A DNA stretch of 64,000 bases from an uncultured Lachnospiraceae bacterium (lineage in GTDB: Bacteria; Bacillota; Clostridia; Lachnospirales; Lachnospiraceae), in assembly GCA_905234245.1 (NCBI GenBank), contig CAJOGN010000001.1, forward strand, positions 62,001 to 126,000, written 5' to 3'. The translations under genes and the position numbers were made by a program. The number at the start of each line of letters is the position of its first letter. The stretch's first letter is position 1. The notes beneath the pieces are model-generated. The model was not told the origin of the DNA, ran no database searches, and saw only the letters and a list, made by a program, of their open reading frames with translations. Below are positions 23,228-43,226 of the stretch, piece after piece.

Positions 23228-23350
23228 ATAACGACCTCCTTTTCATTTTCTTAGGAAATCCATTATGATATTGTTTTTTAGGTGTTTTTACATATATAGT
23301 GTGGATTTTTATTTATATACTATATTAGTAGCGATTATTAGAAGGTGGTA

Positions 23351-23650
23351 AATGAGAGCTAAGTCGCCACTTAGCTCTCATTCTTCCAGAGGAATTTCCT
23401 TGCATGTAGACTACAAACTCACCCAAATCCATGCAAGAGAACTCAATGAAAGGTTGTGAGACAATGGACTACCGTAAGGTAATACTTGCTGCCGCCCCTG
23501 ATTGCTTTAAGAATCACCGCGGCGAAGAGTTTACTATTCAGCAACTAGCTGACAAGTATAATTCTTCTAAGGACAAGTCTGATGAAAAGAAGTAATCAGA
23601 CTTAACACGAACAGCAACTGTTTAATCCATTCCTCATTAAACAGTTGTTG
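23351..23650 (+). other. sORF cassette copy A: leader hairpins, sORF, 3' hairpin
   Basis: AATGAGAGCTAAG/CTTAGCTCTCATT stem; CTTGCATG/CATGCAAG stem; sORF; AACTGTTTAAT/ATTAAACAGTT stem. Confidence 0.85.
23464..23595 (+). CDS. small ORF of three-copy cassette, copy A (43 aa)
   Basis: MDYRKVILAAAPDCFKNHRGEEFTIQQLADKYNSSKDKSDEKK; conserved with copies at 28107 and 42891. Confidence 0.75.
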   Translation: MDYRKVILAAAPDCFKNHRGEEFTIQQLADKYNSSKDKSDEKK

Positions 23651-23723
23651 TATGATTGATAATTAAATATTCCGTATATCGTTTTTTTTAGATTATGTAT
23701 CATATAGGTAAGAATAAAAAAGA

Positions 23724-23753
23724 ACTGGATGGAGATGATATCAAGAGTCCAGT
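23724..23753 (+). promoter_or_regulatory. leader hairpin with conserved loop TGGAGATGATATCAAGAG
   Basis: ACTGGA-[loop]-TCCAGT; same loop with a different stem at 43191. Confidence 0.6.
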
Positions 23754-23774
23754 ATCTTAATATGGAGGTATACC

Positions 23775-24059
23775 ATGATCACTATTAAGGAAATGATGGA
23801 GAAAAGGTACTATAATATGCCCAAAGACGATTCGTTCCGTGGTCGTCTCTCGCGTATCAAAGACATCACGGATTTCTGTTTTGATAATGGAATCGTGATG
23901 AGTACCGACAAGATCCAGGCTATGATGGTGGCCGCCCCGGTCTCCTATACGGAGTTCATCGTCAGCTATGCAGACTTCTACAACGACGTATACCGTCAGT
24001 GCGAGAAGCTCGGCATAATGGAATCTGAAGCCAAGCTTCCCGACTGGAAAAGGTGGTGA
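23775..24059 (+). CDS. hypothetical protein
   Basis: 94 aa ORF with GGAGGT Shine-Dalgarno. Confidence 0.7.
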   Translation: MITIKEMMEKRYYNMPKDDSFRGRLSRIKDITDFCFDNGIVMSTDKIQAMMVAAPVSYTEFIVSYADFYNDVYRQCEKLGIMESEAKLPDWKRW

Positions 24060-24068
24060 GACACATGA

Positions 24069-24108
24069 AGAAGAGCTCCGGTTTATATCGGAGCTCTTCT
24101 TTTTTGTT
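24069..24108. terminator. hairpin terminator
   Basis: GAAGAGCTCCG..CGGAGCTCTTCTTTTTT. Confidence 0.85.
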
Positions 24109-24760
24109 ATTCTTTAATTGGTATATAGTAATGAAACATGAATAATCTAAACATGGAAAATTGAAAATCAAATACGATAAGATATAGATTTGAATTTTTC
24201 TTTTTTGATGCATAGTACAGCTCTGTATAGTTTTTCTCAGATACCAATGGTAAGAGAGATTTTGTCAATATGATATCAGGGCCATCCATATTATCTTTTG
24301 GCAAGAAATTGATATAGTTATTCTCTTTGAATAAAGAGATTAATAACTTCATATTCTCTTCACGTACATCAGACAATTCAAATCTTTCCCATTTAGTACA
24401 TGCATTCACTTCATTAATTTTTTCTTTTAGTATCTCAGTTATTTTTTCTACTTCACTATTAGATATTACAGAATAAAAATAATTCTCTGTAATAGGCCAA
24501 TCTTTTTCTTTATCTTTTTCAGTTTTAGGATCAGTTAAACTCTTTTTAAAGTTTTTAACATCTGTGACTCGTAGTATCTTAAAATCTCCACATAATTCTG
24601 TAAATAGAGAAATATATCCACTATCCAGTTGAATTAAGAATGGTTTCTCTATATCAGCAGAGATAAAATAACCTTGTTTGAATATGTAGAAATCATTGAA
24701 TATACTACTAACTTTTATAAGAAGATTATATATTGTTTTTTTACCTTTATCGCCAATCAT
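24107..24760 (-). CDS. hypothetical protein overlapping the polymerase ORF (sliding clamp-like possible)
   Basis: 217 aa; start codon overlaps polymerase stop (ATGA). Confidence 0.45.
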   Translation of the reverse strand: MIGDKGKKTIYNLLIKVSSIFNDFYIFKQGYFISADIEKPFLIQLDSGYISLFTELCGDFKILRVTDVKNFKKSLTDPKTEKDKEKDWPITENYFYSVISNSEVEKITEILKEKINEVNACTKWERFELSDVREENMKLLISLFKENNYINFLPKDNMDGPDIILTKSLLPLVSEKNYTELYYASKKKNSNLYLIVFDFQFSMFRLFMFHYYIPIKE

Positions 24761-26589
24761 TTTTCCATTCTCCTCTTTACTTCGTCATATAGTTCTGATA
24801 CATCAGGAAGATTTAACCACTTATATCCAAAGGACATATAATTTCCAGTTTGGAAATTATCCATACATTCTTTACCCATATCATCACCATGGTTAAAATA
24901 CTCAGAGGTAATTCCTTTTAGTTTCAAGTCACCTCCAAGATTATCAAACTGCTCTCCAGTCATAATCATTTTGAATATCAGCGAAGATGGGTCGATATTC
25001 ATAGCCATGATAGAATTTGGGTAGAATGCAGACATATCAAAGTCTACTGCATTTGCAAATACATTATTAGTAGGTCTTCCATAGAGTTCTATTCCAACAT
25101 ATCCGTTATATTTTGGGTCTGCGACAAGAGCTCCTTCGAATTCACTGTCATCATCGTCATCCTCTTCAGATTCAATTAGTGCACTTTCTTTATTATAAAT
25201 ATTTATGTTTTCTCCAGGAACGAGTCCTTGCTTTAAGAAAGATAAATATTGCACGTTCCTGAGTTTTACAGTTTGTTTGAATACTTTATCATAGGATGTA
25301 GCATTCTTATAGGAAGAAATATAAAGAGTATCGAAATCAGTTGTTCTTCTCTCAATTCCCATCTGAAGAAGAACGTCTTTTATATTATATATGATAAATT
25401 TTCTGAAGTTCGTATATGGAAGAGTTTTAATGTCTCCATCCTCAGAATAATCAAGTTTTGTATCTTTAATCTCATGATTCGCGATAAAATTTAGTCTATA
25501 AGAACGGAGTTCAGATGCACCTTTTCTAATTGATGCATATAACTCCATCTGGTCATAGAAAGTTGTATATGATGTAAGAATAAAAGAATCTGATTTATTC
25601 TTAATATCATGATTGATTGTGTCTGCTTTAAAATAACATCTCTTGACTGGAAAATCTGGATGAGTCATAACCATAGTAGGGTCTAATCCAAGAGCTTCCA
25701 GTCTATCCATAATATATGGAATATCGAATGAAATATTCCATATACCAATAAAGTCTAATTTTAATTGGTTAATTAGCTGAAAAAGATGAACCAACATCTT
25801 CGATTCATCTGTATAAAAATACTGTCTGTAATCCAATTCTCCATATGATTCATCAAATAAATCATGCAGTTCTTGATTGAATTCATCTATATTTTCAATC
25901 ATATGATCTTGCTCTGCATGCATATGAGAATACATCTCACGTCTTTTATTCTCAATATCAATTTCTCTCTGAGACATTCCATTTGTATTCTTTGGAATGA
26001 ATGTCCTATGAGTAAGAATAAATGTGTAGACAGTTTTATTCCAATCATCAATTAATGTAATTGCATTGATTGGACAATCTGTGGCTGATGGCATTCCTGG
26101 GACTTCTATACCATCAACCTCGATATCTAAAAATCCTTTATGGAGCTTTTTAGGAATATCATTATCCATGTGTAGTAACCACTGTACTCTATACCAAGTA
26201 GCTGGATCATAATCTGCTCCATATACATACGGGTAGAGAAATAGATTCTGAATAGATTGATAATTTCCAGATTGGTAAGCATTATTTAAATACCGGATTC
26301 CTTGCTCACCCATATCATTTGCTATTTCTCTTACGATATTATTACATTTTACGGTTTTTCTTGTAACTTCTTCAAGTCTTGCATAATTCTTATTATATCT
26401 ATGCGTTCTATATTCAGGTTTTTCAAAATATATATCCATCAATGGCTCTTTTACAGCCTGCATGAATTTCTCTTGTGTATCTAAATTTCTCCAGATCATA
26501 TAGAGATAATCTGGAGTTCCTTTTTTTCTATTCGCTTTAATATACTGAATGTCCCACAACATTGAGTTCGATTTATTAGGAGCTTCCAT
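24757..26589 (-). CDS. family B DNA polymerase, N-terminal part (3'-5' exonuclease and motif A)
   Basis: FLDIEVDG (Exo I), IGIWNISFDIPYI (Exo II), YNIKDVLLQ (Exo III), VDFDMSAFYPNSI (Pol motif A); ORF ends before motifs B/C. Confidence 0.85.
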   Translation of the reverse strand: MEAPNKSNSMLWDIQYIKANRKKGTPDYLYMIWRNLDTQEKFMQAVKEPLMDIYFEKPEYRTHRYNKNYARLEEVTRKTVKCNNIVREIANDMGEQGIRYLNNAYQSGNYQSIQNLFLYPYVYGADYDPATWYRVQWLLHMDNDIPKKLHKGFLDIEVDGIEVPGMPSATDCPINAITLIDDWNKTVYTFILTHRTFIPKNTNGMSQREIDIENKRREMYSHMHAEQDHMIENIDEFNQELHDLFDESYGELDYRQYFYTDESKMLVHLFQLINQLKLDFIGIWNISFDIPYIMDRLEALGLDPTMVMTHPDFPVKRCYFKADTINHDIKNKSDSFILTSYTTFYDQMELYASIRKGASELRSYRLNFIANHEIKDTKLDYSEDGDIKTLPYTNFRKFIIYNIKDVLLQMGIERRTTDFDTLYISSYKNATSYDKVFKQTVKLRNVQYLSFLKQGLVPGENINIYNKESALIESEEDDDDDSEFEGALVADPKYNGYVGIELYGRPTNNVFANAVDFDMSAFYPNSIMAMNIDPSSLIFKMIMTGEQFDNLGGDLKLKGITSEYFNHGDDMGKECMDNFQTGNYMSFGYKWLNLPDVSELYDEVKRRMEK

Positions 26590-26687
26590 TCGTTTTCCTC
26601 CTTTTTTCTGGACTTATATCTTTGTTTTTTGATAGATAGATTATGATACTGAAAACAAATCGTTAATGAAGTCCTTTTATTCGGGAA

Positions 26688-27731
26688 ATGTATGAAAGGA
26701 GTATTTACAATATGGCAAATGAATATTTGGATGAAATCGAATTTAATTCTAAAAGTAAGGTTAAAAAGAAAAAATCTCTAATCTCTGAATTAGATGAATT
26801 AGATAAAGAGCCAGTCTTAGTTTCTGATATCATGGTTAAAAATCATGAAGAGAAGAAACAGAAGAAGGAAGAAAAGAAAGCTAAAAAAGAGAAAAAGATT
26901 ATTGAAGACGATGAAGATGACTGGATGACCACACTGGATAATTTTAAAGCCCCAAAAATTCGTAAGAATAGTAGCAAAAAGTTCTTTGACGACTTTGGAA
27001 ATAAAAAGAAAAAGAAGAAAAAGAAAAAAGGTGAGTTTGTATCTCACAAGAAAGAGTTTGAAACAGAGATGGCTCTTCTTAAGAATTTACAAATTGATCA
27101 AAATAAATTTGTTGACTCATTGCAGAAGAAATATAACCAGATGGAAAATACTAAATCCACAGCCCGTGGTGTTGGTAAGTATACAACAGACCTAATTATG
27201 TCTATTAACGGTGCAAGAGATCTATCGATGAGACTGGTTGATAGAATCATTGCGACTAAGAAGGCAATTGCTGACCTTGATTTCAAAGAGAGGAAAGAAT
27301 TTGGGTCTGCTGCTAATAGTGAGCAACAAAATCTCTCCAATTATGCCTCTACCTATTTGAAGCAGCTAATGAGTGCTGGTAGAAACAATATTGTGGGGAG
27401 TGGTGACTCATATGATAGTTATGATAATATTGACGATAATACTGATGACCTGTTTGATTCAATAAATGAATCTCTTGGTGATACAGATAGAAGTGAAGAT
27501 GTTGAAAAATATTTAAAGTATGAGAATGATAATGTAAAAATTCATGTACTCTATCATGATTCTGTTGATACCTCTGATTTAAATGAGAAATATGACTATA
27601 TTGCTATAAATAAAGATGGAAAAGTTGTAGACGACTATCCATTACCAGAAAAGACCAAACTTCAAATCAATAGAACTACAGGATTCTGTAAAGATATTTA
27701 CGGAAATTCTTATGAGATTGATTTTGATTAA
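26688..27731 (+). CDS. hypothetical Lys-rich protein
   Basis: 347 aa ORF; start probably MANEYLDEIEFN. Confidence 0.6.
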   Translation: MYERSIYNMANEYLDEIEFNSKSKVKKKKSLISELDELDKEPVLVSDIMVKNHEEKKQKKEEKKAKKEKKIIEDDEDDWMTTLDNFKAPKIRKNSSKKFFDDFGNKKKKKKKKKGEFVSHKKEFETEMALLKNLQIDQNKFVDSLQKKYNQMENTKSTARGVGKYTTDLIMSINGARDLSMRLVDRIIATKKAIADLDFKERKEFGSAANSEQQNLSNYASTYLKQLMSAGRNNIVGSGDSYDSYDNIDDNTDDLFDSINESLGDTDRSEDVEKYLKYENDNVKIHVLYHDSVDTSDLNEKYDYIAINKDGKVVDDYPLPEKTKLQINRTTGFCKDIYGNSYEIDFD

Positions 27732-27749
27732 AGAGGGGAGTAGTATCTC

Positions 27750-27902
27750 ATGAATGAAATGAGGTTCAAGATTTATCTGAATGCATATATCATTCGATTA
27801 AATCGAGGAGAGAAACTTGAAGATATAGACAATGATTATCTCAGTTTGAAAAAGCTGACTGAAGAAGATATCCAGAAAATTCATCGAAAGTTAAATGAGT
27901 GA
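27750..27902 (+). CDS. hypothetical 50 aa protein
   Basis: ATGAATGAAATGAGG...AATGAGTGA after GAGGGGAG; MNEMRFKIYLNAYIIRLNRGEKLEDIDNDYLSLKKLTEEDIQKIHRKLNE. Confidence 0.6.
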   Translation: MNEMRFKIYLNAYIIRLNRGEKLEDIDNDYLSLKKLTEEDIQKIHRKLNE

Positions 27903-27977
27903 TAATAAAGAGAAGAATAGTAATTTACTATTCTTCTCTTTATTTTTGTTTATATACTATATTGGTAAGAATACTAG

Positions 27978-28294
27978 AAGGTGGTAAATGAGAGCTAAGC
28001 GGCAACTTAGCTCTCATTCTTCCAGAGGAATTTCCTTGCATGAAGACTAACCAAAATACTCCAAACGGAGACCATGCAAGAGAAATAAAAGAAAGGTCGT
28101 GAGACAATGGATCTGTACAGACTGATTTTAAAGTCTGCCGCTGATGGTTTCTTTAATCATCGTGGTGAGGAGTCTACTCTTCAGCAACTAGCTGATAAGT
28201 ATAACTCAGATAAAAACAAGTCTGATAAAAAGAAATAAACAGACTTAAACAAACAGCAACTGTTTAATCCATTCCTCATTAAACAGTTGTTGTA
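27978..28294 (+). other. sORF cassette copy B
   Basis: Same leader hairpins, sORF and 3' hairpin as copy A. Confidence 0.85.
28107..28238 (+). CDS. small ORF of three-copy cassette, copy B (43 aa)
   Basis: MDLYRLILKSAADGFFNHRGEESTLQQLADKYNSDKNKSDKKK. Confidence 0.75.
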   Translation: MDLYRLILKSAADGFFNHRGEESTLQQLADKYNSDKNKSDKKK

Positions 28295-28391
28295 TGATTA
28301 ATATTTAATTATAAAAGGGAGGGCTAAGCCCTCCCTATAATCCTTTTTTGTCTTAAATGCTGTATTTTTTCCTTCAAAAAACAATCTTTTA

Positions 28392-31300
28392 ATGTTTAAG
28401 GAAGGAGTGGTCAACTTGCCGATTTATATTGATAGCATTCCATACTTAAAAACCCAGTATAAAAAAGTTGCTCTTCCTAGGTCCGGTACGATGGTAAGTT
28501 CAACCGGGAAAGTTTCTGGGGAAAATAAAAACATGTATGGGAATCTTGTGTTTTTATTCACAGATAATATCGATAAAAGCATCAAGATGGTCAATAATAA
28601 CATAAATTGCTACCATGATAATAAATATAGGTATTTTTATTATAACCTATTATATCGTGGTATGATTGGAGCTAAGAGATATAATATTAGAGATGCTGAG
28701 GAGAGGAAAGCTATCTATAAAAAGATTTCAGAGCAAACCTCTATTACCCCACATCCACCAACCTTATTAAATAAAACTACTAACTATAACTGCTATTATG
28801 ATATGAGCAAATATTGCCAAATTTATTCTAGGATAGCAGATAATTTTGCTCCAGTGAAAAAGATGAATGTATTCTGGAATTATTTCAGATCTATCTGGTT
28901 CTCTGAGCAGTGTGAAAATTATCCAAGAAAGATTGTACTGATTGATGCAAATCTGTATGATAAATTTGGTATGAATCTAAGAGAGAACATGTCAAATCCC
29001 CTATTTGTTCTCTACTATACTTTTTATAGAGCTTTTGATAAAATCAGTGATTTGAATATTGACTTTGTAATCTATTGTAACAGAGCAGTATTACGAGTAA
29101 ATCCAAGTCAATGTGACCAAAAGAGTTACCAGATTTTTAAGCGTGAGCTCTTTAAAGTATTTAGTAGAAAAGTAAATGAGGATGCTCTCAATGAAAAGCA
29201 TATCGATGAGCAGGACCAGAAAGAAACGATTAAAGAAGCAATTCAGCAAAAGTATAATTTCACTGGAAGTAAAAATGATGAGGAAGAAATCACTTCATTA
29301 AATGATACCAATACTACCAGCAATAGTGATGCTAAAAAAGAAGCTGCTTCTAAAAAGATTGAAGAAAAGATTGATAAGAAAGTAGAGCAGAAAGTTGCTG
29401 AAGCTAAGAAAGAATTAAAAGAAGTAGGAGCTTCTGATAATTCTAAAGAAGCTACTGAATATATTAAAGCTAAAACTGAGATGGAACTGGATGACGATAA
29501 AGACCTCATTGAAGATATGTATAACTTCATGAAGACTGAAAAAGTTCCATCTAAACCAGTTAGTACAGCAAGAGATGCTCAACTAAGAAAACGCCAGGAA
29601 TCTCTGAGTGTTAAAGATATCTCATTACTAAAAATTAATGAGATGAATAACTCCAAGAGAAAGATTCCTGAGAAAGATGTATCAAAGAATATTCATAGTA
29701 TCAACAAGAATGTCCAGAAGGTAAAGTTTAATAACTTAAATAAAGACTACATTGAGAATGTCATGCCTGAAGATATTGCAAAAGTATTTACTTCTCTTAA
29801 TGATAAATCAATGAAGTTCTATGTTAAGAATATAAAAGTCGAGGAAACCTCGAATGAGTTAAACTATAAAGAAACCTGGCGTATTCAGTTGGAAGATGAA
29901 TTAAAACAACAACACAGTATTACTGTAGATATTCCTAAATTCCTAGATGATAAATTCCTGTATCTTGGTGGTAATAAGAAGATTATCAATAAACAGAATT
30001 TCCTGTATCCTGTTGTTAAGACTGCACCCGATACAGTTCAGATTGTAACCAACTACAATAAGATGTTTATTCGTCGTGTTGGTACAAAGTCTATTAGTTC
30101 GGTTGAAAGAATGATGAAGCTCATTTCTTCCAATGATGAGTGCCAGAAATTCTTCACTGTTGGTAATAATAGTTCTATCAATAGAGCATATTTAACAACG
30201 ATTGAGTATGATGAATTTGGTAAGGTTCTCACTCAGTTTGAAACTCCAAAATGCATCATATTCTTTAATCAGAAAAATGCTAAAGAATATGCAGATAAGA
30301 ATCAAATTGATATTCCGGAACATAGAATTTTCATCGGAATTAAGGATAAAAATCCAGTCTTTATTGATTCTGAAACACAGACTACTGATAATGGAGAAAG
30401 TATCTGTGATTTAATTATTACAGAACTTCCAGAGTCTATGCAAAAAGAATTCAACAAGACTAGATCTACTAAAAAGTTAATGTATTCCAATGTCACTATC
30501 ATGACACAGCCAATTCCATTTATCATTCTATTAATTTATTGGGAAGGTATTACTTCAGTATTCAAGAAAATGGATATTAAGTATTATTTCTCTCAGAAAT
30601 ATCCATCCTCCATTAAATCGAATGAAAATGTTATTCGTTTTAAGGATTGCTATTTTGTCTATGAGAGTGATTTAGCTATTGACTTACTTATGAATGGTTT
30701 AAGAGTTCTTGATACTGAAAATTATGACTTTAAAGAATACAACACAGAAGAACCATTCGTAGAGTATTTCAAAAAAGTATATGGTAAAGCAGCTATCATG
30801 AGTGCTATTAGTAACTACTATGATTTTGAGATTGACCCAATCACAAAAGAAATCTTGGAGGACATTAATCTTCCTACAGATTTAATTGAACTGTGTATTT
30901 ATGCTAATAGCTTGCTAGCTGATGAATCTTATACAGCAGAGAACTCTCAGGTACTATCTAGAGTTCGCTCTAGTGAGGTTATCCCAGCTATTCTCTATTA
31001 TGAATTAAGTAAGACTTATTTAAATTATAAGAATAGCATGGGAAAAAAGAAACTGTCCATTCCGAAAGATGCTGTAATTAAACAACTTCTTTCTCTACAG
31101 ACAGTTGAAGATTATTCTACTCTTAATCCAGTAGTAGAATTAGATAAAGATAGAGCTATCACTTCCAAGGGTTATCGTGGTATCAATGTGGATAGAGCCT
31201 ATACAGAAGAAAAGCGTTCTTATGATGACTCTATGATTGGTGTCATGGCAATGTCTACTACACTGGGTGCAAACTGTGGTATTGGTAGATTCTTAACTCT

Positions 31301-32414
31301 TGAACCAGAATTAACTTCTGTAAGAGGATATGCAAATATTAAGAAAGATAATAGAGAAGAATTGACTGATGTTAATCTTTTTTCTCCTTCTGAATTATTA
31401 TATCCTCTTGGTAATACACGAGATGACTCTATCCGTACTGCTATGGCTACCAAACAGTCTAAGCATGTAGTACCGGTAAAAAATGCAACACCTGCTCTTA
31501 TCTCCAATGGTGTTGATGAAGTTATTAAGTATAATCTTTCTTCTGATTTTGTTATTAATGCAGACGAAGATGGTACTGTAATAGACTATGATGAGAAATC
31601 CAAAATCCTCATGGTAGAATATAAATCTGGTAAGCATAGAGCTATTAACCTCGCACCTAATATTGTAAAGAATGGTGGTGGTGGCTTCTATATCTCCAAT
31701 GAACTTATTACAAAATATAAAGTTGGTGATAAGTTTAAGAAGGATGATACATTAGCATACCATAAAGATTTCTTCCGTGATGATAAATTTAATGGTATTC
31801 GTATGAATGTTGGTGTTCTTGAAAAAGTGGCCATCATGTCTTCTTATGATACCTATAATGATAGTGCTATGATTACTGAGAAGCTAGCTAGAGATGCAGA
31901 AACTGAGTTAGTATTCTGTAAGCCAGTTGTTCTTGGTAAGAATTCTAATATTTATGATATTAGAAAGATTGGAGACCATGTTGAAATTGGTGATAGCTTA
32001 ATTAATTTTGACACATCTTTTGATGATACAGATTTAAATAAGCTATTAGCAAATCTCTCTGATGAAAATAAAGAAGTCTTACAAGAAGGTAGTATAAACC
32101 AGGTTAAATCTAAATATGCTGGTACTATCGTAGATATTAAAATCTATAGTACAGTTGATATTCCAGAATTATCTGAATCTCTACAGAAGATTGTAAAGAC
32201 TTACTATAATAGAGTAAATAATAAAAAGAAGTTCGTCTCTAAGTATGATAATTCTAATTCTATTGTGAAATGTGGATTACTATTAAATGAGACTACTGGT
32301 AAAATCGAACCGAACATCTATGGTGTTATCAAAGGACAAAAGGTACAAGATTCTGTACTGATTGAATTCTACATCCAACACGGTGATATTATGGGTGTCG
32401 GCGACAAGATGACT
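28392..32414 (+). CDS. multisubunit RNA polymerase beta subunit-like, exon 1
   Basis: Large ORF ending ...YIQHGDIMGVGDKMT, the RpoB GDK catalytic loop; RpoB-like TLEPELTSVRGYANIKKDN. Confidence 0.8.
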
Positions 32415-32698
32415 TGAAATAAGGGTCATTAAAAACCTCTTGAATTGTCGGGAACGAATTCATAATTCATAACTACTAAACTTTATAAAAGTGGCCAATA
32501 CTAACCATATTGGGTATAGTAAAAATGTTATGAATGAATCAATCCGCAACCAAGCTTCTTATTATAAGAAGAAGGTTCAACGACTATCGAAAGACACTGA
32601 TTATAGTGAATCGAGTAGAGTACGACTTAATATAAGTCGGAAGTGAGAGGCAGCTATCATAGCTGAAGATATAGTCTAATTTCTAAAAAAAGAAATTG
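32415..32698 (+). ncRNA. group I intron in RNAP beta-like gene
   Basis: P1 exon ATGACT with IGS GGTCAT; core elements present (P variant AATTGTCGGGAA); splicing gives GDKMT|YFTALKSVICEV. Confidence 0.82.
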
Positions 32699-32908
32699 TA
32701 TTTCACTGCATTGAAGTCAGTAATATGTGAAGTAATACCTGAAGGATATGAACCATATTCTGAATTCCGTCCTAACGAAGAGATTTCATCGTGTTTAGGC
32801 GGGAGTGCCGTACTCAAGCGTCAGACTCCATCGATTGTTCTCACGTTATTAGGAAACAAAGTTATTGTCGAATTAAAACGTAAACTTAAGGAAATATATG
32901 ACGAATAA
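32699..32908 (+). CDS. RNA polymerase beta subunit-like, exon 2
   Basis: YFTALKSVICEVIPEGYEPYSEFRPNEEIS... continues the GDK loop (LKSVI vs GNKGVI). Confidence 0.8.
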   Translation, partial: YFTALKSVICEVIPEGYEPYSEFRPNEEISSCLGGSAVLKRQTPSIVLTLLGNKVIVELKRKLKEIYDE

Positions 32909-33022
32909 ACAATAAATATTAAGAATGTGTTAATAGTTTTTTATGCTATTAACACATTCTTAAATATCATTATAAGAATAAGCAATTTTATAATGGCAAA
33001 TAGAATAAAAGGAGTGATATGT

Positions 33023-34177: not shown

Positions 34178-34228
34178 TACAAAAAAAAGAAGATATGAGA
34201 TAAACTCTCATATCTTCTTTTATATGTC

Positions 34229-34642
34229 TTAGGTTATTAATAATACCTCTACTGTGTCAATACCTTCAGACACCAACTCATCAATTCTGTCAGATAATCT
34301 ATTAAGTAAATCATTTTTACTCATAGTAAGAATACTAGAGGAGTTTTCTTCACTCATATAGAATTCAACATTTGATTCGTGTGCCACTGTTCCAACTACT
34401 TCAGCAGAGATATCAAATGCTGCTGTATTATCGTCACCTAAGCTGATACACAGAACTCCATTTTTATCTGGATTTGTTACAATGATGTCGTCTTCTTCAA
34501 ATCCTCTGTTTCCTTTTAGGTATTCGCATATTTTGTATGCTAGATTAATAGGGTCTTCCACATTTTCGGATTTTAAATATAAATTTACCATATGTTCTCC
34601 TTTCTTTATTGCCACGTTGTTGCTAAATCTAGATGAGACCAT
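34229..34642 (-). CDS. hypothetical protein
   Basis: Probable start MVNLYLKSENVEDPI. Confidence 0.55.
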   Translation of the reverse strand: MVSSRFSNNVAIKKGEHMVNLYLKSENVEDPINLAYKICEYLKGNRGFEEDDIIVTNPDKNGVLCISLGDDNTAAFDISAEVVGTVAHESNVEFYMSEENSSSILTMSKNDLLNRLSDRIDELVSEGIDTVEVLLIT

Positions 34643-35220
34643 CCTAAGTGACCTGTGTCACAGACGATTCCATATCCGCGAGATGTTGCAACTATTGTAC
34701 CTCTGGGGAAATGACTAAGATTTGCTGCCACTATAATATATGGGCCAAGCATTTTGCATCCATCATTTCTTACCCAGTAAGGATAGTTTGTGGAGTCATA
34801 TCCACGATTTCTCATTATGGATACTACACCACTCATATTTAGATTATAATAGGTCTCTTTTCCGGTTGGACCATAGTTTACTCCTTTACCTCTAGTAAGA
34901 ATTGGCCCATCCCAGTAAAAGGTTTGTGATGTTGGAGTGCTAGCATTGATTTCATCCAACTCTTTCTGTAACTCAATATGTCTATTGTTTTCGTACGTCC
35001 AATCGTTCTTTAAGGCTTGAATGGCTACACTATCATCAGTATAACCGGCCGTTCTCAGAAGCTCTGCTGCTTCATGAATCTTATTTTTCATATTAATGTG
35101 ATACTGAATTTGGGATTCAATATCAGCTTTGCTTGCTGCGTTTGCTGGGACTAATAAGACCACAAACAAACTGATGGTCATGATTAAACTGATAAGCTTT
35201 TTCATAATTTCATCCTCCAA
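34606..35220 (-). CDS. secreted protein, possible 3D-domain/cell-wall-active
   Basis: Signal peptide MKKLISLIMTISLFVVLLVPANA; C-term FPRGTIVATSRGYGIVCDTGHLGWSHLDLATTW. Confidence 0.55.
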   Translation of the reverse strand: MEDEIMKKLISLIMTISLFVVLLVPANAASKADIESQIQYHINMKNKIHEAAELLRTAGYTDDSVAIQALKNDWTYENNRHIELQKELDEINASTPTSQTFYWDGPILTRGKGVNYGPTGKETYYNLNMSGVVSIMRNRGYDSTNYPYWVRNDGCKMLGPYIIVAANLSHFPRGTIVATSRGYGIVCDTGHLGWSHLDLATTWQ

Positions 35221-35317
35221 AAAGAATAATTAATATATAAAGGATGAAGTCTCTGAAACTGGAGACCTCATCCTAAATATTGATACGTACTTATATTAAA
35301 GTTTCTTAAATTACATA

Positions 35318-35393
35318 TGGAGCTGATATTCGGACTCGAACCGAAGACCTAGTGATTACAAATCACTTGCTCTACCAACTGAGCTATATCAGC
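35318..35393 (-). tRNA. tRNA-Thr(TGT), CCA encoded
   Basis: GCTGATA...TATCAGC+T+CCA; anticodon loop TTTGTAA. Confidence 0.93.
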
Positions 35394-35404
35394 ATTATAG
35401 ATAC

Positions 35405-35960
35405 CGGCTATAACGGTTACTGCCCGCCAACTTTCGTCCGCGTACCCCAGTAGCTTGAATTCCACAATCTACATTGAAAGGACAACCATGAATCCGAGGG
35501 TACACCATCACAAAACCCTCCATCATGATCGAGTCTATGATAAACTCATAGACTCAGTAAACCATAGAATCTATTCTACGGATTCACTCAATCTATGAAA
35601 TTGATTTTTAGGGTGCCCATGACTTAAGCATGCAATCAATGGGCGTGAGCAGTTCCTCATCATGAGCGGCCAATACGTTCTGAGCTTTGATTTCCAAAGC
35701 ATATATTGGCGGCCTAAACCCCGTTAGTTGGAACAACACCAGCTTGCACTTATCGTTTGTTAGTGCCATACAATCTCAGATATCGTTCTGAGCTACGCCT
35801 CAATCATGGAACTACTATACTTGGTGTGCACCCCTCAAGCGCCGCCATGTGAGGACTAAGCGTTAGGTATTAAGTAGTCTTAATACCCTCCGGAATTGTA
35901 CCGGACCATTATCATCTTAGTGTCAGATGATAAATCGAACCTCGCTTTTTTATAAATAAA
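35405..35960 (-). ncRNA. candidate large structured noncoding RNA, copy 1
   Basis: Serial hairpins (e.g. GAGTCTATGA/TCATAGACTC, GCCAATA/TATTGGC, GGTATTAAG/CTTAATACC, TTATCATCT/AGATGATAA); no convincing ORF; next to tRNA-Thr; orientation inferred. Confidence 0.6.
35853..35960. repeat. 108-bp near-identical repeat, copy 1
   Basis: GGACTAAGCGTTAGG...TTTTTTATAAATAAA; one mismatch to 37737-37844. Confidence 0.95.
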
Positions 35961-36321
35961 CAGGCAGAGATATGTTAAACCGATAACCCAGCACAAACTC
36001 TATTGCCAGCGGTTATGGCGTTCTCACTTATTGCCTACCATCATCTGGTAAAAAGTAATGTTGCTAGCATACCAATTTTAGGGTTCACCCATGGCACATT
36101 AAAGTCAACGAAAACTGCACCTGTTATTTTAATCGGGAATATCGGAGACTTAATAAGAAGCTACAACAATACCCTTGAGTTAGACTTTCATGTTATTGGC
36201 CACCAATCAACACTAGCTGTGCCGATACAGGTTCTAAACTGCTCGACGGGCTTTATAATCAATTTCAGCTTTTACAATTTACCAGATAGCACCTGACTTT
36301 CAGACGCCTGATTATTTAAGA

Positions 36322-36867
36322 TTACATTTCGTCCTTGGGGAACTTCACCTTACGAGCAGGCTCTTCCTTCTTAGCAGTAGGAAGCTGATAAGTGGTAAAG
36401 AAGAGACCGGGGTGAGGAATGAAGATATCGTCTGCCAGATTCTCATAGAGAGTGGAGACCAGACCCCAAGGATTCTTCATGCTATCGTTCTCCAGTTGGA
36501 CAACAGCAGGCTTGCACATAATGTAGTCGAATGCCCAGCCGAATGCTTCAACATGTTGGAAATCGACGACAGCGTTATTGCCCTTGAAAGCGCGACGATA
36601 AGCATCAAGGTCATAACCAAAGTTACCCTTCAGGTTACCATTGGTGGGAATGACCTCAATCTTAACATGAATGTTACCGAGGATTTTCTCCTCAGGAAGG
36701 ATGACAGCCAGGGCTTCTGCCTTTTCGCTATCATCAACGTATAGCTTTAAAACATAAGGATGCTCAACGAGTTCAACGTGGACATCTTTGTCCTCCCTAA
36801 AGAAGGCATTGACTTCATTGAAAAACTCGTACCATGGGGTACATAGAGTCATTTTTTCCTTACTCAT
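36322..36867 (-). CDS. hypothetical protein
   Basis: 181 aa ORF with good Shine-Dalgarno region. Confidence 0.65.
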   Translation of the reverse strand: MSKEKMTLCTPWYEFFNEVNAFFREDKDVHVELVEHPYVLKLYVDDSEKAEALAVILPEEKILGNIHVKIEVIPTNGNLKGNFGYDLDAYRRAFKGNNAVVDFQHVEAFGWAFDYIMCKPAVVQLENDSMKNPWGLVSTLYENLADDIFIPHPGLFFTTYQLPTAKKEEPARKVKFPKDEM

Positions 36868-36924
36868 TTTTTATTCCTCCTTAGGAATTTTTGGTTTTTG
36901 GTTATATAATGGTTATAACTAATC

Positions 36925-37000
36925 TGGTCCGAGTGGCGCGACTTGAACGCGCGGCCTCGTGATCCCAAATCACGCGCCCTACCAACTGGGCTACACCCGG
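36925..37000 (-). tRNA. tRNA-Pro(TGG), CCA encoded
   Basis: CCGGGTG...CACTCGG+A+CCA; anticodon loop TTTGGGA. Confidence 0.9.
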
Positions 37001-37200
37001 AAATATAATAGCCATTTTTTCAAAAAATATACTACACCGAAATCTCCTTAACGCATATGAGATTTGCTGCCTTTCAACTGTGGCCATCAGTTGATGCCAG
37101 AGTTTCGGTGTAGGTATGTGATTTTTGGCGGGACACATACAAACCACGTTATCATATACGGAAACCCATATTTTTTATCTACCTTTCATTATTAATAAGT

Positions 37201-37276
37201 TGGTGACACTGCTGGGATTTGAACCCAGGACCCACGCATTAAAAGTGCGTTGCTCTGCCAACTGAGCTACAGTGCC
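37201..37276 (-). tRNA. tRNA-Lys(TTT), CCA encoded
   Basis: GGCACTG...CAGTGTC+A+CCA; anticodon loop CTTTTAA. Confidence 0.93.
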
Positions 37277-37282
37277 ATATGG

Positions 37283-37354
37283 CAGCGGCAGTTAGATTCG
37301 AACTAACGCATACGGGAGTCAAAGTCCTGTGCCTTCACCGCTTGGCTATGCCGC
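37283..37354 (-). tRNA. tRNA-Gln(TTG)
   Basis: GCGGCATAGCC...CTGCCGC; anticodon loop CTTTGAC. Confidence 0.85.
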
Positions 37355-37481
37355 TTTATAAAATGTGGGCGCAGTTTAAGCATGCCACTGACGCCCATAA
37401 GCAGTACCTTTTAAAGAGCTCAATGAAATTACTATAGAGTCGAATACAGTAATACATTGAACACGAACGGAGGAAGGTACA

Positions 37482-37757
37482 ATGAAAAACGCTTCGTCGT
37501 CTATCATAGACGACTTCCTAGTTATCGTACTAGGCAACGCCAATAATAGAGACCAAGTTATGTCGGGGGATATAGAAAAGTACAAAACTCAGGAGACGGT
37601 CGAGTTCCGATATAAGTCGATCCCTGGTCGTACAGACATTACCGAGCTAAAGCAGATGGTTGCTGGTACAGAGGACGAAGCTTTCTATCGACGATTGATC
37701 GTACTTTCATCGGCATACTTGGTTGACTCTATCATTGGACTAAGCGTTAGGTATTAA
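37482..37757 (+). CDS. possible 91 aa protein, overlapping candidate RNA copy 2
   Basis: ORF preceded by GGAGGAAGGTACAATG; coding status conflicts with the ncRNA interpretation. Confidence 0.4.
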   Translation: MKNASSSIIDDFLVIVLGNANNRDQVMSGDIEKYKTQETVEFRYKSIPGRTDITELKQMVAGTEDEAFYRRLIVLSSAYLVDSIIGLSVRY

Positions 37758-37844
37758 GTAGTCTTAATACCCTCCGGAATTGTACCGGACCATTATCATC
37801 TTAGTATCAGATGATAAATCGAACCTCGCTTTTTTATAAATAAA
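37737..37844. repeat. 108-bp near-identical repeat, copy 2
   Basis: See 35853-35960. Confidence 0.95.
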
Positions 37845-37857
37845 GTATGTGCGGAAA

Positions 37858-38073
37858 TTAATTCTTATCAGGATATAACTCAGAATCTATGAGTACATAT
37901 CCTATTGCTTGAAGCACTGTGCTTGCTTCATCTTCGGGAATCCCATTGTCAATAAGAACTCCTTCAGCTTTTTCTATATCATTGACAGATATAGATGTAT
38001 TCACAAATGTAATAATTTTTTCTGAATCCATGACATCTCTCCTTATGTTTATTATACATAGATAATATATCAT
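37858..38073 (-). CDS. hypothetical protein
   Basis: Probable start MDSEKIITFVNTSISV. Confidence 0.55.
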   Translation of the reverse strand: MIYYLCIINIRRDVMDSEKIITFVNTSISVNDIEKAEGVLIDNGIPEDEASTVLQAIGYVLIDSELYPDKN

Positions 38074-38089
38074 TAAAATTTTTATCTAG

Positions 38090-38470
38090 TTAATAAACTA
38101 AATCAGCTGCAATCAGATCATAGATCTTTCTAATTGCTTTTCGGAATCCTTTCTTACAGAATACTGGAGGAACGCCTTTATCATCGATGTATATATCTGC
38201 ATATATTTTCTTTCCAGTATCACCATGTTTTTCTTTGATAATATCCAGATCATCATTGATTGCATCGAATATGATTCCGTGTTCTCTACACCAGTCTACG
38301 GCATTTGCTAGGTTTACTCCAGTTCTACATGTCCATAAAATAATTTTTGAGCCTTTCGATTGCTCTTCGAGAATATATTCGATTACAGAATTTTTAGGTT
38401 CTCCTATATCTGGATACATGTTTTCACACAGAGTGTCATCAAAATCTACGGCAATGATTTTCGGATCCAT
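38090..38470 (-). CDS. HAD-superfamily hydrolase/phosphatase-like
   Basis: IIAVDFDDTLCENMYPDIGEP...KIILWTCRTG. Confidence 0.82.
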   Translation of the reverse strand: MDPKIIAVDFDDTLCENMYPDIGEPKNSVIEYILEEQSKGSKIILWTCRTGVNLANAVDWCREHGIIFDAINDDLDIIKEKHGDTGKKIYADIYIDDKGVPPVFCKKGFRKAIRKIYDLIAADLVY

Positions 38471-38507
38471 AGTTTCAAGCCTCCTAATCAGATATTATAA
38501 ATCTGTT

Positions 38508-39206
38508 TTAGGAAGCTTTTAACCATATTTTATCTCTAAACCCATTTATTGTACTAGGGTGTTCTGAAGTTTCGTCGGTATCATATACCTCATCATATTC
38601 ATCTTCTTCGTAGTATTCTTCTTCATAGGCTTCCTCATCTCGTTTCTGTTCTTCTTCAATTTCTCTCTTAATAGAAATCAGTTGCTTCTGCAAGGCAACC
38701 ACATAATTTCTACTATCATTGTAATCCTTTCTTCCCAGAACAGACAGATGAGTCTTCCCCTCTCTTACATCCAGAATACTACATAACCAGCACATGATAG
38801 TATTTAAGCTTCTGTCTTTCTTGACATTCACCATACTGTACGCTTTACGTACATAATCGGAATTGGATGTATTCATGTGCATAGTCTTATATCTCAATTC
38901 AATCAATCTACAGATTGCTTCTCCCTCATCTTCCTCTCCAATCAAATCCATCAGTATTTCGAAGAGCATTTTGTTTGCTCGATTCCCCTGCCAAATCCTT
39001 CTCTGCATATACTTTATAGTTAAAGCATTCATGTCAGGATCGTAGTCATTCTGAGGCTCTTCCAGCCTGTCCAATGCGTCTTCGTACTTTTTGTTCAGGT
39101 TGTAATACATCTTGCACAGAATAGCTATTGCACATATGCATACTGCAATAGCAGCAAAACACAAAATCATAGTAGCCATAATAAATACCTCCATAAAATA
39201 ATACAA
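38508..39206 (-). CDS. hypothetical membrane-anchored protein
   Basis: N-terminal hydrophobic segment, acidic C-terminus. Confidence 0.55.
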   Translation of the reverse strand: MYYFMEVFIMATMILCFAAIAVCICAIAILCKMYYNLNKKYEDALDRLEEPQNDYDPDMNALTIKYMQRRIWQGNRANKMLFEILMDLIGEEDEGEAICRLIELRYKTMHMNTSNSDYVRKAYSMVNVKKDRSLNTIMCWLCSILDVREGKTHLSVLGRKDYNDSRNYVVALQKQLISIKREIEEEQKRDEEAYEEEYYEEDEYDEVYDTDETSEHPSTINGFRDKIWLKAS

Positions 39207-39277
39207 AATTTTAAATCACAATCACATATATTATTTATATGATTGCATTAAAATAATATATAATCAAAACATGAAGC

Positions 39278-39595
39278 TTATAATATCGTAGTAGAAGCCA
39301 AGGTAAACCCATTTTTAACAATGCTATCCTTTGACTTGTCATAGATTTCTTTGATAACTTCATTGATTTTATCATCCAGATCAGTAAGTCTTCTGTCCAA
39401 ATACTGGTGAACACTCTCAGCTAGTTCAGCATCTTTTACCACCCACATCATAGCAGTTTCTTCCGGTTCATCTGTCTTAGCTTTCATGAAAAGAGAAGCC
39501 TCCGGGTTTTCCATCACTGTTTTAAATTTCACTAAATCAGAATAGGTTACCAGAAGATTATGAATCTTGAGAAGATTTTCATATTTGTTATCCAT
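39278..39595 (-). CDS. hypothetical protein
   Basis: 105 aa ORF with GGAGG upstream. Confidence 0.6.
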   Translation of the reverse strand: MDNKYENLLKIHNLLVTYSDLVKFKTVMENPEASLFMKAKTDEPEETAMMWVVKDAELAESVHQYLDRRLTDLDDKINEVIKEIYDKSKDSIVKNGFTLASTTIL

Positions 39596-39675
39596 ATTAG
39601 TTTCCTCCTTTTAATTAAATAAATAGTGTAGAGAAGCATCATCTTTGCTCTCTACACTATTTATTTATCATTGGT

Positions 39676-39843
39676 TTAAATTGTACAAAAGTAATACAGG
39701 TCAATCAACTGACCTTTTGTGATTGTGAAGTAATCATTCAGTAATCCAGAGTCTCTTGAAATAATCATTCTAGTCACTGGATCAAATTTTCTGAATGCAT
39801 AGACTAATTCATCTGTCATGATTCCAATTAGATTCAGTACGTC
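39676..39843 (-). CDS. RNA polymerase beta' N-terminal subunit, exon 4
   Basis: D|VLNLIGIMTDELVYAFRKFDPVTRMIISRDSGLLNDYF; completes NADFDGD. Confidence 0.8.
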   Translation of the reverse strand, partial: DVLNLIGIMTDELVYAFRKFDPVTRMIISRDSGLLNDYFTITKGQLIDLYYFCTI

Positions 39844-40111
39844 CATTTATATTAAACTCTATATCACTATAGAGATTAGACTATATCTTCAATCATAATG
39901 ATTGCTCCTCACTTCCATCTATATAATATAGATGTACTCTACTAGTTAATGCATCTAACAGATACATCCGTTGGATAGTCGTTGAACCTTTTCATTCTTA
40001 TAATGAACTTGGCTGCTGATTAATTCATTTATATCATTATCACTATAAATATAGTAGATATAAATTGCGAATCCTTCCAGCAATTCAAGGAGTTATATGG
40101 TTTCGTTAGAG
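39844..40111 (-). ncRNA. group I intron, beta'N intron 3
   Basis: Core present on minus strand; P1 exon ATGGC with IGS ACCAT implies C-A at the 5' splice site. Confidence 0.78.
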
Positions 40112-40463
40112 GCCATCAAAGTCTGCATTCAAGCCCGGGAGAATGCTTAAAGGAACCGACAGAGAAAAATCTGATATATCAATTTTCACTTTTCTAACAC
40201 TCATCAGTAACATGGAATAATAGTTGAGTGTGGGATTTCTGTTGATGAGTATTTTAGGTTTTTCTTTCTTTACTATAAATTGCATTATCTCATATACTCT
40301 ATTGTCAAATTTATAAGCTCGACTCCAGATGTAGTATGCTTTAGACAGATTAATATCATCCATCTTCATGAGATAATAGATAATCTTAAATTTATATAGT
40401 TCTAGGAATGTATTATATGATAGATCAATTTCGTCGTCTCTCAGTGTTGGGTCTGGAACAATT
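40112..40463 (-). CDS. RNA polymerase beta' N-terminal subunit, exon 3
   Basis: (V)IVPDPTLRDDEIDLSY...INRNPTLNYYSMLL...PGLNADFDG. Confidence 0.85.
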
Positions 40464-40676
40464 CATAGTTAGACTATATCTTCGTCTCTTAATGAGATGC
40501 CCCCCATTTCCATCATATGGATGTACTCTACTCAGTTCTACCATCAGGTACCTTTTCGTTAGTCGTTGAACTTTATTCTTTTCATAAGAATCTTAGCTGC
40601 TGATTGTATTCTAATAATAGTTTCCAGCAATTAAAGGGGTAGAATAATAGGTCACCCTATTACCACGCAATTGTTT
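40464..40676 (-). ncRNA. group I intron, beta'N intron 2
   Basis: P1 ACGT with GCGT; core present; splicing gives NFSSRNV|IVPDPTLRDDEIDL. Confidence 0.83.
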
Positions 40677-40748
40677 ACGTTTCTACTGGAGAAGTTGATA
40701 GACCCGCCTAAGATTTGCCCTCTAATCAATCCCTCTTTACCATTTAAC
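40677..40748 (-). CDS. RNA polymerase beta' N-terminal subunit, exon 2 (72 nt)
   Basis: LNGKEGLIRGQILGGSINFSSRNV matches RpoC [24 protein letters not shown]. Confidence 0.82.
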
Positions 40749-40981
40749 CATAAATACTTCATATCACTGTGAAGATTAGACTATATCTCCATCTTAATAT
40801 AAGATGCCTCCCGTTTCCACCGTAGTGTACTCTACTCGATTTACCATATAGGTATCTTTCCCTAGTCGTTGAACCTTTATACTTTAATAGTATACTTGGC
40901 TGCTGATTGTATCATGATGATAGTTTCCAGCAATTAGAGAGGTTTGCGCTATATATCACTATATAGTCGCCCATTAAATTT
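40749..40981 (-). ncRNA. group I intron, beta'N intron 1
   Basis: Core present; 5' boundary approximate (candidate P1 GCCT with GGGC). Confidence 0.72.
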
Positions 40982-41793
40982 AGGCTGAAATTTTCGTCCC
41001 AGAGAGTATTTAATCTATACTGAATTCTTGACAGAATAAGATGCTTGTCAATTTCTTCAGCATTCTTTACTTTCTCACTGAGACTAAAGAGAGGATTGAT
41101 ATTCTTATCAATCGTATTGAAATAATACGTATCACTTGTAGAGGATTGTGGACGAAGTAAGGTTGAATAAATAGGAATATGACTGCAAAAGACAGAGGAA
41201 GATTCTGTAAGAATTCTATCCAGTTCATCGACTTTCTTTTTCTTCTTTTCTTTGAAGTAATTGATTACCTCTTCGAATCTTTCTCTGAATTCAATCAGTC
41301 CAATTCCTACAAATGGATGTTTAGGTTTCTCATCCATTTCTGTTGCTGTTGCAAGATGCATATTACCATCTACATCAACGATATTTCTTCTATTGATGAT
41401 TTCAGGTACTGTACTCTTACCAAGACAGTCACAGAGTTTATTGTAATAGAATGGATTGATTACATAGTTATCTCCTAAAGTTATCCAACCAGTAAATTCA
41501 ATGTTTGCATCCTTAAATTCCACTTTAGTGTGACAAATCGGACACTCTTCTCCTTCGAAGAGCTTTCCTTTAAATGCCCCACATTTACAACGATATCTTT
41601 CAATGAAAGCAGTTTCGTCTTCATAGCTCGTTCCATATAGAATAGAACGAGCGCCATATAACGATTTCTGTTTTGTTTCATCTACTTGAAACGTCGCGGG
41701 TTCACTAATAATGAATCCATTATTTGTGACAATATCAATGTAAAAATCTACGTCCCAATTCCTCCTTGTAATTCTTACCTTTTGTTTCTTCAT
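40982..41793 (-). CDS. RNA polymerase beta' N-terminal subunit, exon 1
   Basis: Zinc-binding CKCGAFKGKLFEGEECPICHTKVEF as in the RpoC N-terminus. Confidence 0.85.
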
Positions 41794-41845
41794 ATAATTA
41801 CCTCCTATCGGTAAATTAATATTAAGTATTCCTTAATATTAATAT

Positions 41846-42670
41846 TCATTGGAAGAATTTCCAGATATCGGGGTCATTAAATAAAAGAGAGGATAGAGAG
41901 CTAGAACCAAATTCTTTCATGACTGATACTAGTTCATCATACATCTCTTTACACTTCTTTGGATCTTCATCAGGATGTGGTCCAATGTTTCCATCTTCAT
42001 CCTGGATGAATTTCACCCCATTGATTCTGATTACATTGTCATCCAATACAATGATAGAGGATTTTGGTTTATCTGTATCAAATGTAATTTCTGTCTTATT
42101 TTCATCTGGATTATAATTCTCATCATCTTTTAGATAGGATAGTGGTTCAAGAATACCATCTTCATTTCTCTTAAACACAGTACCCTCTGCAGATGATTGA
42201 GCTAGAAAATCACATCTTTCATTCTCTGTATGTCCATCGTGACCTTTTACCCAAGTAAAAGTACATTTATGAGGTTTCTTTGCATCCAGGAGTCTTTTCC
42301 ATAAATCAATATTCTTTACTGGTTTATTTAAAGATGTCTTCCATCCGTTTGACTCCCAGTTATTAATCCATTTTTGATTAAAAGCATTCACAACATATTT
42401 AGAGTCAGTGAATACTTCAATCTTACAAGGCTCCATTAATGATTCAAGTCCAGTAATCACTCCCATTAATTCCATTCTATTATTGGTTGTGATTTTAAAT
42501 CCCTCTGTATATTCCACCACACTTTCTACTGTATCATCTTTATTAAGATATTGAACGATTGTACCATATCCTCCCGGGCCATCGCCACTTCCCTTAGCAG
42601 ACCCATCTGAGTAAATTCTCACCTTTCTTAAAGTAGCCATTATAATACCTCCTAATCTAATTATAATCAA
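41846..42670 (-). CDS. rnhA: ribonuclease HI
   Basis: IYSDGSAKGSGDGPGGYG, TNNRMELMGVI, VFTDSKYVVN, WVKGHDGHTENERCD. Confidence 0.93.
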   Translation of the reverse strand: MIIIRLGGIIMATLRKVRIYSDGSAKGSGDGPGGYGTIVQYLNKDDTVESVVEYTEGFKITTNNRMELMGVITGLESLMEPCKIEVFTDSKYVVNAFNQKWINNWESNGWKTSLNKPVKNIDLWKRLLDAKKPHKCTFTWVKGHDGHTENERCDFLAQSSAEGTVFKRNEDGILEPLSYLKDDENYNPDENKTEITFDTDKPKSSIIVLDDNVIRINGVKFIQDEDGNIGPHPDEDPKKCKEMYDELVSVMKEFGSSSLSSLLFNDPDIWKFFQ

Positions 42671-42767
42671 TTTGGCTATCCAAATTTATAATATATAATT
42701 TACAAATATTTTCTATGATCCGGAAAAATAATCATATATTATACCAATAAGATATAAGAAGGTAGTA

Positions 42768-43086
42768 AATGAGAACCAAGAATCACGGTCTTGGTTCTCA
42801 TTCTACTAGAGGAATCTCCTTGCATGAGGATACATGTAAACCTACTCTGAAAAGAGCCATGCAAGAGATCATAAGAGAGGAAGTGGGATCATGAATTATT
42901 GGACAGTAATGCTCATGGCCGCTGCAGATTGTTTCAACAATCACCGTGGCGAGGAGTTTACTCTTCGGCAACTAGGTGAGAAATATTCTCCAAAAGCCAA
43001 GTCTGGTGAAAAGACCCAAAAGTCAAAGTAACTAGACTCAAAACAAACAACAGCTGTTTAATCCATTCCTCATTAAACAGTTGTTG
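42768..43086 (+). other. sORF cassette copy C
   Basis: Leader stem AATGAGAACCAAG/CTTGGTTCTCATT covaries relative to copies A/B; CTTGCATG/CATGCAAG; sORF; 3' hairpin. Confidence 0.85.
42891..43031 (+). CDS. small ORF of three-copy cassette, copy C (46 aa)
   Basis: MNYWTVMLMAAADCFNNHRGEEFTLRQLGEKYSPKAKSGEKTQKSK. Confidence 0.75.
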   Translation: MNYWTVMLMAAADCFNNHRGEEFTLRQLGEKYSPKAKSGEKTQKSK

Positions 43087-43190: not shown

Positions 43191-43226
43191 GAGCCGAGTG
43201 GAGATAATATCAAGAGCTCGAGCTTC
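43191..43226 (+). promoter_or_regulatory. leader hairpin with conserved loop TGGAGATAATATCAAGAG
   Basis: GAGCCGAG-[loop]-CTCGAGCTTC; counterpart at 23724. Confidence 0.6.

Follow-up and report, generated by a model that had tools for sequence, protein, structure and literature searches.

Copies of the cassette and their placement

The DNA analyzed here, called the window below, is a stretch of 64,000 nucleotides (nt) covering bases 62001-126000 of the 258,041-base contig C1 (CAJOGN010000001.1), which belongs to a 2.66-Mb assembly (GCA_905234245.1) from an uncultured Lachnospiraceae bacterium. It carries dispersed copies of a small cassette, the elements of which are arranged in the following 5′ to 3′ order: a TATAYTATA promoter core, a leader with two hairpins (P1 and P2) separated by a linker, a Shine-Dalgarno (SD)-like sequence, a small open reading frame (sORF), and a further hairpin (the 3′ hairpin). 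Counted from the leader start through the 3′ hairpin, copies A, B, and C occupy 23340-23649, 27976-28291, and 42757-43085, respectively, all on the + strand, as are all the cassette features located below. The original prediction, which was made from the sequence of the window, had placed three cassettes here, and every part was located in its place. The count itself had to be raised: when the whole assembly was searched, once with the protein and once with the hairpin pattern, both searches gave seven copies, three of which (copies 3, 4, and 5, equal to A, B, and C) lie inside the window. All seven are on C1 and on the + strand, and neither search found any elsewhere in the assembly. Their sORFs start at C1 positions 47811, 59285, 85464 (A), 90107 (B), 104891 (C; a first search gave 104894), 188961, and 202208. 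One architecture is seen in all seven copies, which bears out the reading of a repeated cassette.

The copies differ in what follows the 3′ hairpin. Copies 1, 4, 5, 6, and 7 have downstream of it a repeat that resembles a terminator and has a T-rich tail, while the next early promoter comes directly after the cassette in copies 2 and 3. In copy B, a GC-rich inverted repeat, GGGAGGGCTAAGCCCTCCC (28316-28336), is followed by T-rich DNA and is likely a terminator; it recurs almost letter for letter in copy 7, and the terminator scan lists it on the opposite strand only. The modules are also mosaic: the leader of copy 1 is nearest to that of copy 6 (91%), and its sORF is nearest to that of copy 2 (85%).

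Judged by its gene content, C1 is the genome of a jumbo phage, whole or for the most part, and a distant relative of the Bacillus phages AR9 and PBS1. By tblastn, it was found to carry relatives of the AR9 major head protein, sheath, terminase, tape measure protein, and split RNA polymerase subunits, and also of the DnaB, the ligase, a GroEL-like protein, and pieces of the family-B DNA polymerase. Most of these show 23-44% identity to the AR9 proteins, with E values down to 1e-68. A split multisubunit RNA polymerase, a terminase, and head genes, which mark the AR9/PBS1 group, are thus all present. The C1 terminase shows up to 68% identity to relatives in uncultured viral contigs.

Predicted early promoter

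The TATAYTATA core lies about 22 nt upstream of the leader in all seven copies. It is TATACTATA in copies A (23316-23324) and B (27953-27961), and TATATTATA in copy C (42735-42743); in copy A, the predicted transcription start is about 6-8 nt downstream. These cores resemble the consensus of the AR9 early promoters used by the virion RNA polymerase, AAATATATATTAT-(6N)-G (PMC5312081). The G at position +1 is not conserved at the cassette promoters, where A or G is found. The cassettes therefore have upstream the AT-rich consensus of AR9/phiKZ-type early promoters, and they would be expressed early in infection. A scan for sigma-70 promoters gave results at or near the shuffled background and no usable signal.

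The TATAYTATA sequence was also found at about 35 intergenic sites on C1, often with a ribosome-binding site (RBS) and a gene 30-60 nt further on, and with a preference of about 3:1 for the + strand. These sites would permit the drawing of an early-gene map for an uncultured jumbo phage.

Structure of the leader

P1 consists of 13-14 base pairs (bp) and weaker basal pairs, except in copy 2, where it is a short helix of 7 bp with a different sequence. In copy A, its 14-bp arms are at 23351-23364 and 23369-23382, with weak basal pairs from 23344; in copy B, the arms are at 27987-27999 and 28006-28018; and in copy C, they are at 42768-42781 and 42789-42802 and are of the AACCAAG/CTTGGTT type. The linker between the two hairpins, AGAGGRA(U), is unpaired in the consensus fold. 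It reads AGAGGAAT in copies A (23388-23395), B (28024-28031), and C (42808-42815). P2 is formed by UUGCAUG and CAUGCAA together with outer pairs and usually encloses a small CUC/GAG hairpin. The P2 arms are at 28036-28042 and 28073-28079 in copy B, around a CTCC/GGAG hairpin, and at 42820-42826 and 42858-42864 in copy C, around a CTCT/AGAG hairpin. In copy A (TTGCATG at 23400-23406 with CATGCAA at 23430-23436), the inner hairpin is missing. Both leader hairpins had been described in the original prediction, and both were confirmed.

The pairs of P1 and the outer pairs of P2 covary across the copies, as had been claimed for the leader hairpin. In the alignment of the seven copies, 97.5% of the cells pair, and the value falls to 39-44% when the partner strand is slid by 1-3 columns. 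Six pairs (11 cells) are changed on both sides, and only 0-1 of 500 shuffles reach the observed covariation measures. RNAalifold gave the same structure unaided, and the folding of the leaders gave z values of -2.8 to -6.2 against dinucleotide shuffles. Because seven related rows are few, the strength of the covariation lies in its pattern: copy 2 has a rebuilt P1 helix, and copy 7 has AACAAG/CTTGTT in place of AATGAG/CTCATT. Since the searches described below gave no convincing match in relatives, the covariation is one among seven paralogues.

Small protein

The sORF has 43-47 codons across the seven copies. Copies A (23464-23595) and B (28107-28238) encode proteins of 43 residues, MDYRKVILAAAPDCFKNHRGEEFTIQQLADKYNSSKDKSDEKK and MDLYRLILKSAADGFFNHRGEESTLQQLADKYNSDKNKSDKKK, respectively, and copy C (42891-43031) encodes one of 46 residues, MNYWTVMLMAAADCFNNHRGEEFTLRQLGEKYSPKAKSGEKTQKSK. 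Summed over all pairs of copies, the synonymous divergence (pS) is 0.66 and the nonsynonymous divergence (pN) is 0.19 (pN/pS about 0.28), and pN is as low as 0.12 for residues 11-34. This purifying selection upholds the claim of a real small-protein family and is strong evidence, drawn from the comparison of the copies, that the sORF is translated and selected as a protein. The proteins are charged, with tails rich in K, S, and D, and are not hydrophobic. In Pfam the best E value was 0.018, and in PHROGs it was 0.0083 (phrog_10060, of unknown function); these matches were partial and were obtained with 2-3 of the seven members. No relative was found in the PDB. AlphaFold, run on the seven rows, predicted one long helix at low confidence (pLDDT 73, pTM 0.33).

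The 3′ hairpin and its complementarity to the linker

The 3′ hairpin starts 15-20 nt past the sORF, and its 9-nt loop, CCAUUCCUC, is identical in all seven copies. In copy A, it has 14 bp (23613-23649), with the invariant loop CCATTCCTC at 23627-23635; in copy B, it lies at 28255-28291 (loop 28269-28277); and in copy C, at 43049-43085 (loop 43063-43071). Its conservation, as predicted, extends to the seven copies. Copy C had been thought to carry a shortened version, which proved incorrect: an A-to-G change produces a G-U pair, and the stem still has 14 bp. A weaker stem does exist, in copy 1, outside the window. That the loops vary and the stems are kept is true of P1 but not of the 3′ hairpin with its constant loop. 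As many as 29 consecutive bases of the hairpin core are identical in all copies, while synonymous sites are near saturation. This identity points to selection or, as a live caveat, to homogenization by recombination. The fixed loop suggests a partner, either RNA or protein. The hairpin was also considered as an intrinsic terminator, which was not supported: the stem is AT-rich, no T run follows it, and the terminator scan made no call for it in the three copies.

A candidate for the partner is found within the cassette itself. The loop segment AUUCCUC can form 7 bp with GAGG(A/G)AU of the leader in all seven copies, and the GAGGRA part of the latter belongs to the linker that separates P1 from P2 and is unpaired in the consensus fold. 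The A-to-G change in the linker of copy 2 keeps a G-U pair with the loop; no copy shows a change on both sides. A 7-bp match in all seven leaders arises by chance for 1.9% of permuted loops and 1.2% of random 9-mers from the contig, and these values become 0.6% and 0.1%, respectively, when the linker alone is considered. The complementarity is suggestive of a loop-linker contact that would couple the mRNA ends, in cis or between copies.

Searches for relatives

Homologues had been expected in related phages, an expectation that was not borne out: neither the sORF profile nor the covariance model of the leader gave a convincing match there. For the sORF, tblastn found none in annotated phages, and patterns derived from the profile found none in viral contigs and about 85,000 species genomes; some of these viral contigs are fragments, which weakens the absence. 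The profile gave no credible match outside the C1 copies in 397 genomes of the host family, nor any in 40 jumbo-phage records including AR9, MarsHill, Machias, LPJP1, BpSp, and phiR1-37. Its weak matches are segments of integrase-like and two-component-regulator-like proteins. The leader model (R1) gave scores of 85-128 bits for the seven copies; no other match exceeded about 29 bits, the level of the antisense background.

Exact patterns for the 3′ hairpin and the leader retrieved nothing credible from the viral contigs or the species genomes. Seven matches to a shortened 3′-hairpin pattern do not have the complete complementary stem and seem to be due to chance. For relatives of the RNA, blastn gave short matches only in 392 genomes of the order and in annotated phages. 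Rfam 15 recognized only introns and transfer RNAs (tRNAs) in the window at gathering scores, and copy A gave one chance-level match at E ≤ 1. The cassette is best described, from these comparisons, as a real family without a relative in the collections searched and as a structured early phage gene.

A second motif after early promoters

Another leader motif, UGGAGAUAAUAUCAAGAG, was noticed, with the core UGGAGAURAUAUCAAGAG in a hairpin that follows early promoters and precedes mostly unrelated small ORFs. On C1, it occurs directly past cassette copies 2, 3, 5, and 6 and in three further + strand locations (window positions 23730-23747 and 43199-43216; C1 positions 46633, 59562, 127669, 189265, and 190029). 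The exact core is also present in other viral and jumbo-phage contigs (L188, L195, L196, L199, L202, L205, and others), where it is mostly embedded in a stem that differs in sequence and immediately precedes a gene; among the 397 genomes of the host family, it occurs only on C1. Across 19 sequences, 92% of the cells of the stem pair, as against 23-42% when slid, and 31 cells are changed on both sides, as against 10.6 in shuffles. The model of this motif gave 17 matches at E ≤ 0.01 in 7 of 32 phage records, none of them in AR9, and the motif has no Rfam match in the window at gathering scores. Like the cassette leader, it is a covarying hairpin right after an early promoter and ahead of a small gene; unlike it, it has an unrelated sequence, heads other genes, and is found in other phages. 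It may be the more general feature of the two, showing structured early leaders to be a wider trait of such phages.

Interpretation

The explanation that we favor, with modest confidence, is that the cassettes form an orphan multicopy family of early genes in a jumbo phage related to AR9 and PBS1, and that their structured untranslated regions (UTRs) stabilize or regulate the mRNA. Each gene would be transcribed, alone or with its neighbor, from an early promoter by the virion RNA polymerase of the phage. The mRNA would start about 10-14 nt before P1 and would contain P1 and P2, an SD site, the gene of 43-47 codons, and, past the stop codon, the hairpin with the constant loop. How long these early mRNAs last and how they are translated is most likely determined by the two structured UTRs. 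Decay from the 5′ end would be impeded by P1 and the purine-rich 5′ sequences; P2, which lies just before the RBS, would govern how accessible the start site is and tune initiation; and the 3′ hairpin would either block decay from the 3′ end or have a binding partner. Pairing between the constant loop and the linker AGAGGRAU may couple the two ends of the mRNA. Of the role as RNA regulator that had been proposed for the cassette, the conservation stands, and the manner of action would be as just outlined. In AR9-group jumbo phages, an injected RNA polymerase expresses the genes for host takeover within the first minutes, and most of these are small ORFs of unknown function. The product of the sORF is probably a peptide for host takeover or counter-defense, the natural guess for a gene of this class. 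Comparison with protein families and solved structures and the predicted fold gave no confident match that would speak for or against the effector and anti-defense roles originally proposed.

Several points weigh against this explanation. The searched collections contain no homologue that would confirm the structure independently. The 3′ hairpin received no intrinsic-terminator call, and the match between loop and linker arises by chance in about 1-2% of loops. Finally, the copies are mosaic paralogues on one contig, and the constancy of the 3′ hairpin could in part result from recombination or gene conversion.

The invariant, exposed 9-nt loop can also be read in two other ways, both of which we regard as doubtful. 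The first takes the seven mRNAs as an RNA circuit, in which the 3′ loop kisses the linker AGAGGRAU in cis, giving a circularized mRNA, or in trans, so that the dosage of the early host-takeover peptides is controlled in a coordinated manner. According to the other, which is rather unlikely, the RNA itself is the conserved product, dual-function or noncoding, and the C/U-rich seed in its 3′ hairpin pairs with purine sites of the GAGGAAU type in its own leaders or in the SD regions of other mRNAs. The linker complement present in all copies suits this idea, as does the occurrence of GAGGAA in the RBS of the sORF in four of the seven; the RBS complement is, however, missing in copies 2, 3, and 4, the only occurrences of the full 9-nt complement GAGGAATGG on the contig are the hairpins themselves, read on the opposite strand, and the sORF is clearly under selection at the protein level.

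The remaining alternatives are less probable still. Seven dispersed copies in intergenic gaps recall a small mobile element, similar to a miniature inverted-repeat transposable element, or a homing cassette spreading by self-copying within the phage genome; such an origin would fit the terminator common to copies 4 and 7 and the next promoter common to copies 2 and 3. It is nevertheless improbable: no terminal inverted repeats were found at the edges, where the similarity fades into promoter or terminator at copy-specific points, no encoded or nearby mobility function was recognized, and the selection on the ORF fits resident genes. The single orientation of all copies counts weakly against it, since early promoters favor the + strand by about 3:1. 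Control by a leader peptide, in which an ATG in P1 (SD AGAAGG, spacing 4-5) or a TTG in P2 would open an upstream ORF that controls the sORF, is very improbable. The P1 ATG does open an ORF of 20-45 codons with a common S(T/S)RGISLH in five copies, but the ORF ends vary, and copies 2 and 7 have no ATG, GTG, or TTG at this position, for which the upstream ORF in P1 was rejected. Where base changes have abolished the ATG, the opposite arm of the stem has changed to match; therefore, it is the stem, not the peptide, that is kept. The least probable reading of all is a module resembling a type I toxin-antitoxin system, in which an antisense RNA would overlap the structured mRNA of a small protein. 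A small ORF, long structured UTRs, and multiple copies are what such a module would show; on the other hand, the charged proteins with their K/S/D-rich tails are not the hydrophobic ones of such toxins, no antisense promoter was identified, and P1 matches the leader model on both strands only because it is a palindrome.

Seven copies with conserved RNA structure at both ends mark a gene for which dose or timing is important, and one that escapes annotation relying on a length cut-off. The loop-leader contact, if true, would be a compact case of 5′-3′ RNA communication in a phage mRNA.

Other features of the window

The window holds seven tRNA genes. A 108-nt direct repeat (35853-35960 and 37737-37844; 99% identical and 1.9 kb apart) brackets part of the tRNA cluster. 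Fourteen group I introns (Rfam RF00028) were found in the 64-kb window, a very dense set with coordinates in 13294-13871, 32378-32696, 39857-40991, 45462-48610, and 61082-63020. Several of them lie near gene pieces of RNA polymerase, a UvsX-like protein, and terminase, and none overlaps a cassette. An ORF for a Dda/PIF1-like helicase (51914-53947, - strand) possibly carries an intein: its residues 84-323, immediately ahead of the ATPase domain, gave a weak match to intein splicing.

Comparison with known systems

The group I introns share with the cassettes that they are structured, repeated RNAs in one phage; they differ in their places, which do not overlap those of the cassettes. The early transcription units of AR9 are another parallel: in both, an AT-rich promoter for the virion RNA polymerase precedes small genes of unknown function. 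The annotated AR9 promoters, however, are mostly located about 30-60 nt before the gene, whereas the cassette has a leader of about 135 nt with two helices, and AR9 contains no credible match to the leader model or the sORF profile.

For the proposed effect on mRNA lifetime, the parallel lies in Bacillus subtilis and other Gram-positive bacteria, where, according to titles cited in PMC3997798, 5′ stem-loops and purine-rich 5′ sequences can stabilize mRNA. The cassette has a stable helix near the 5′ end of this kind: P1 is about 10-14 nt from the predicted start and is accompanied by a short unpaired stretch. As far as those titles indicate, the B. subtilis 5′ stabilizers (the aprE leader; polypurine sequences) likewise combine a helix with a purine-rich, SD-like sequence near the 5′ end. 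To this arrangement, the cassette adds a second helix, a 3′ hairpin with a constant loop complementary to the leader, and its occurrence in seven copies.

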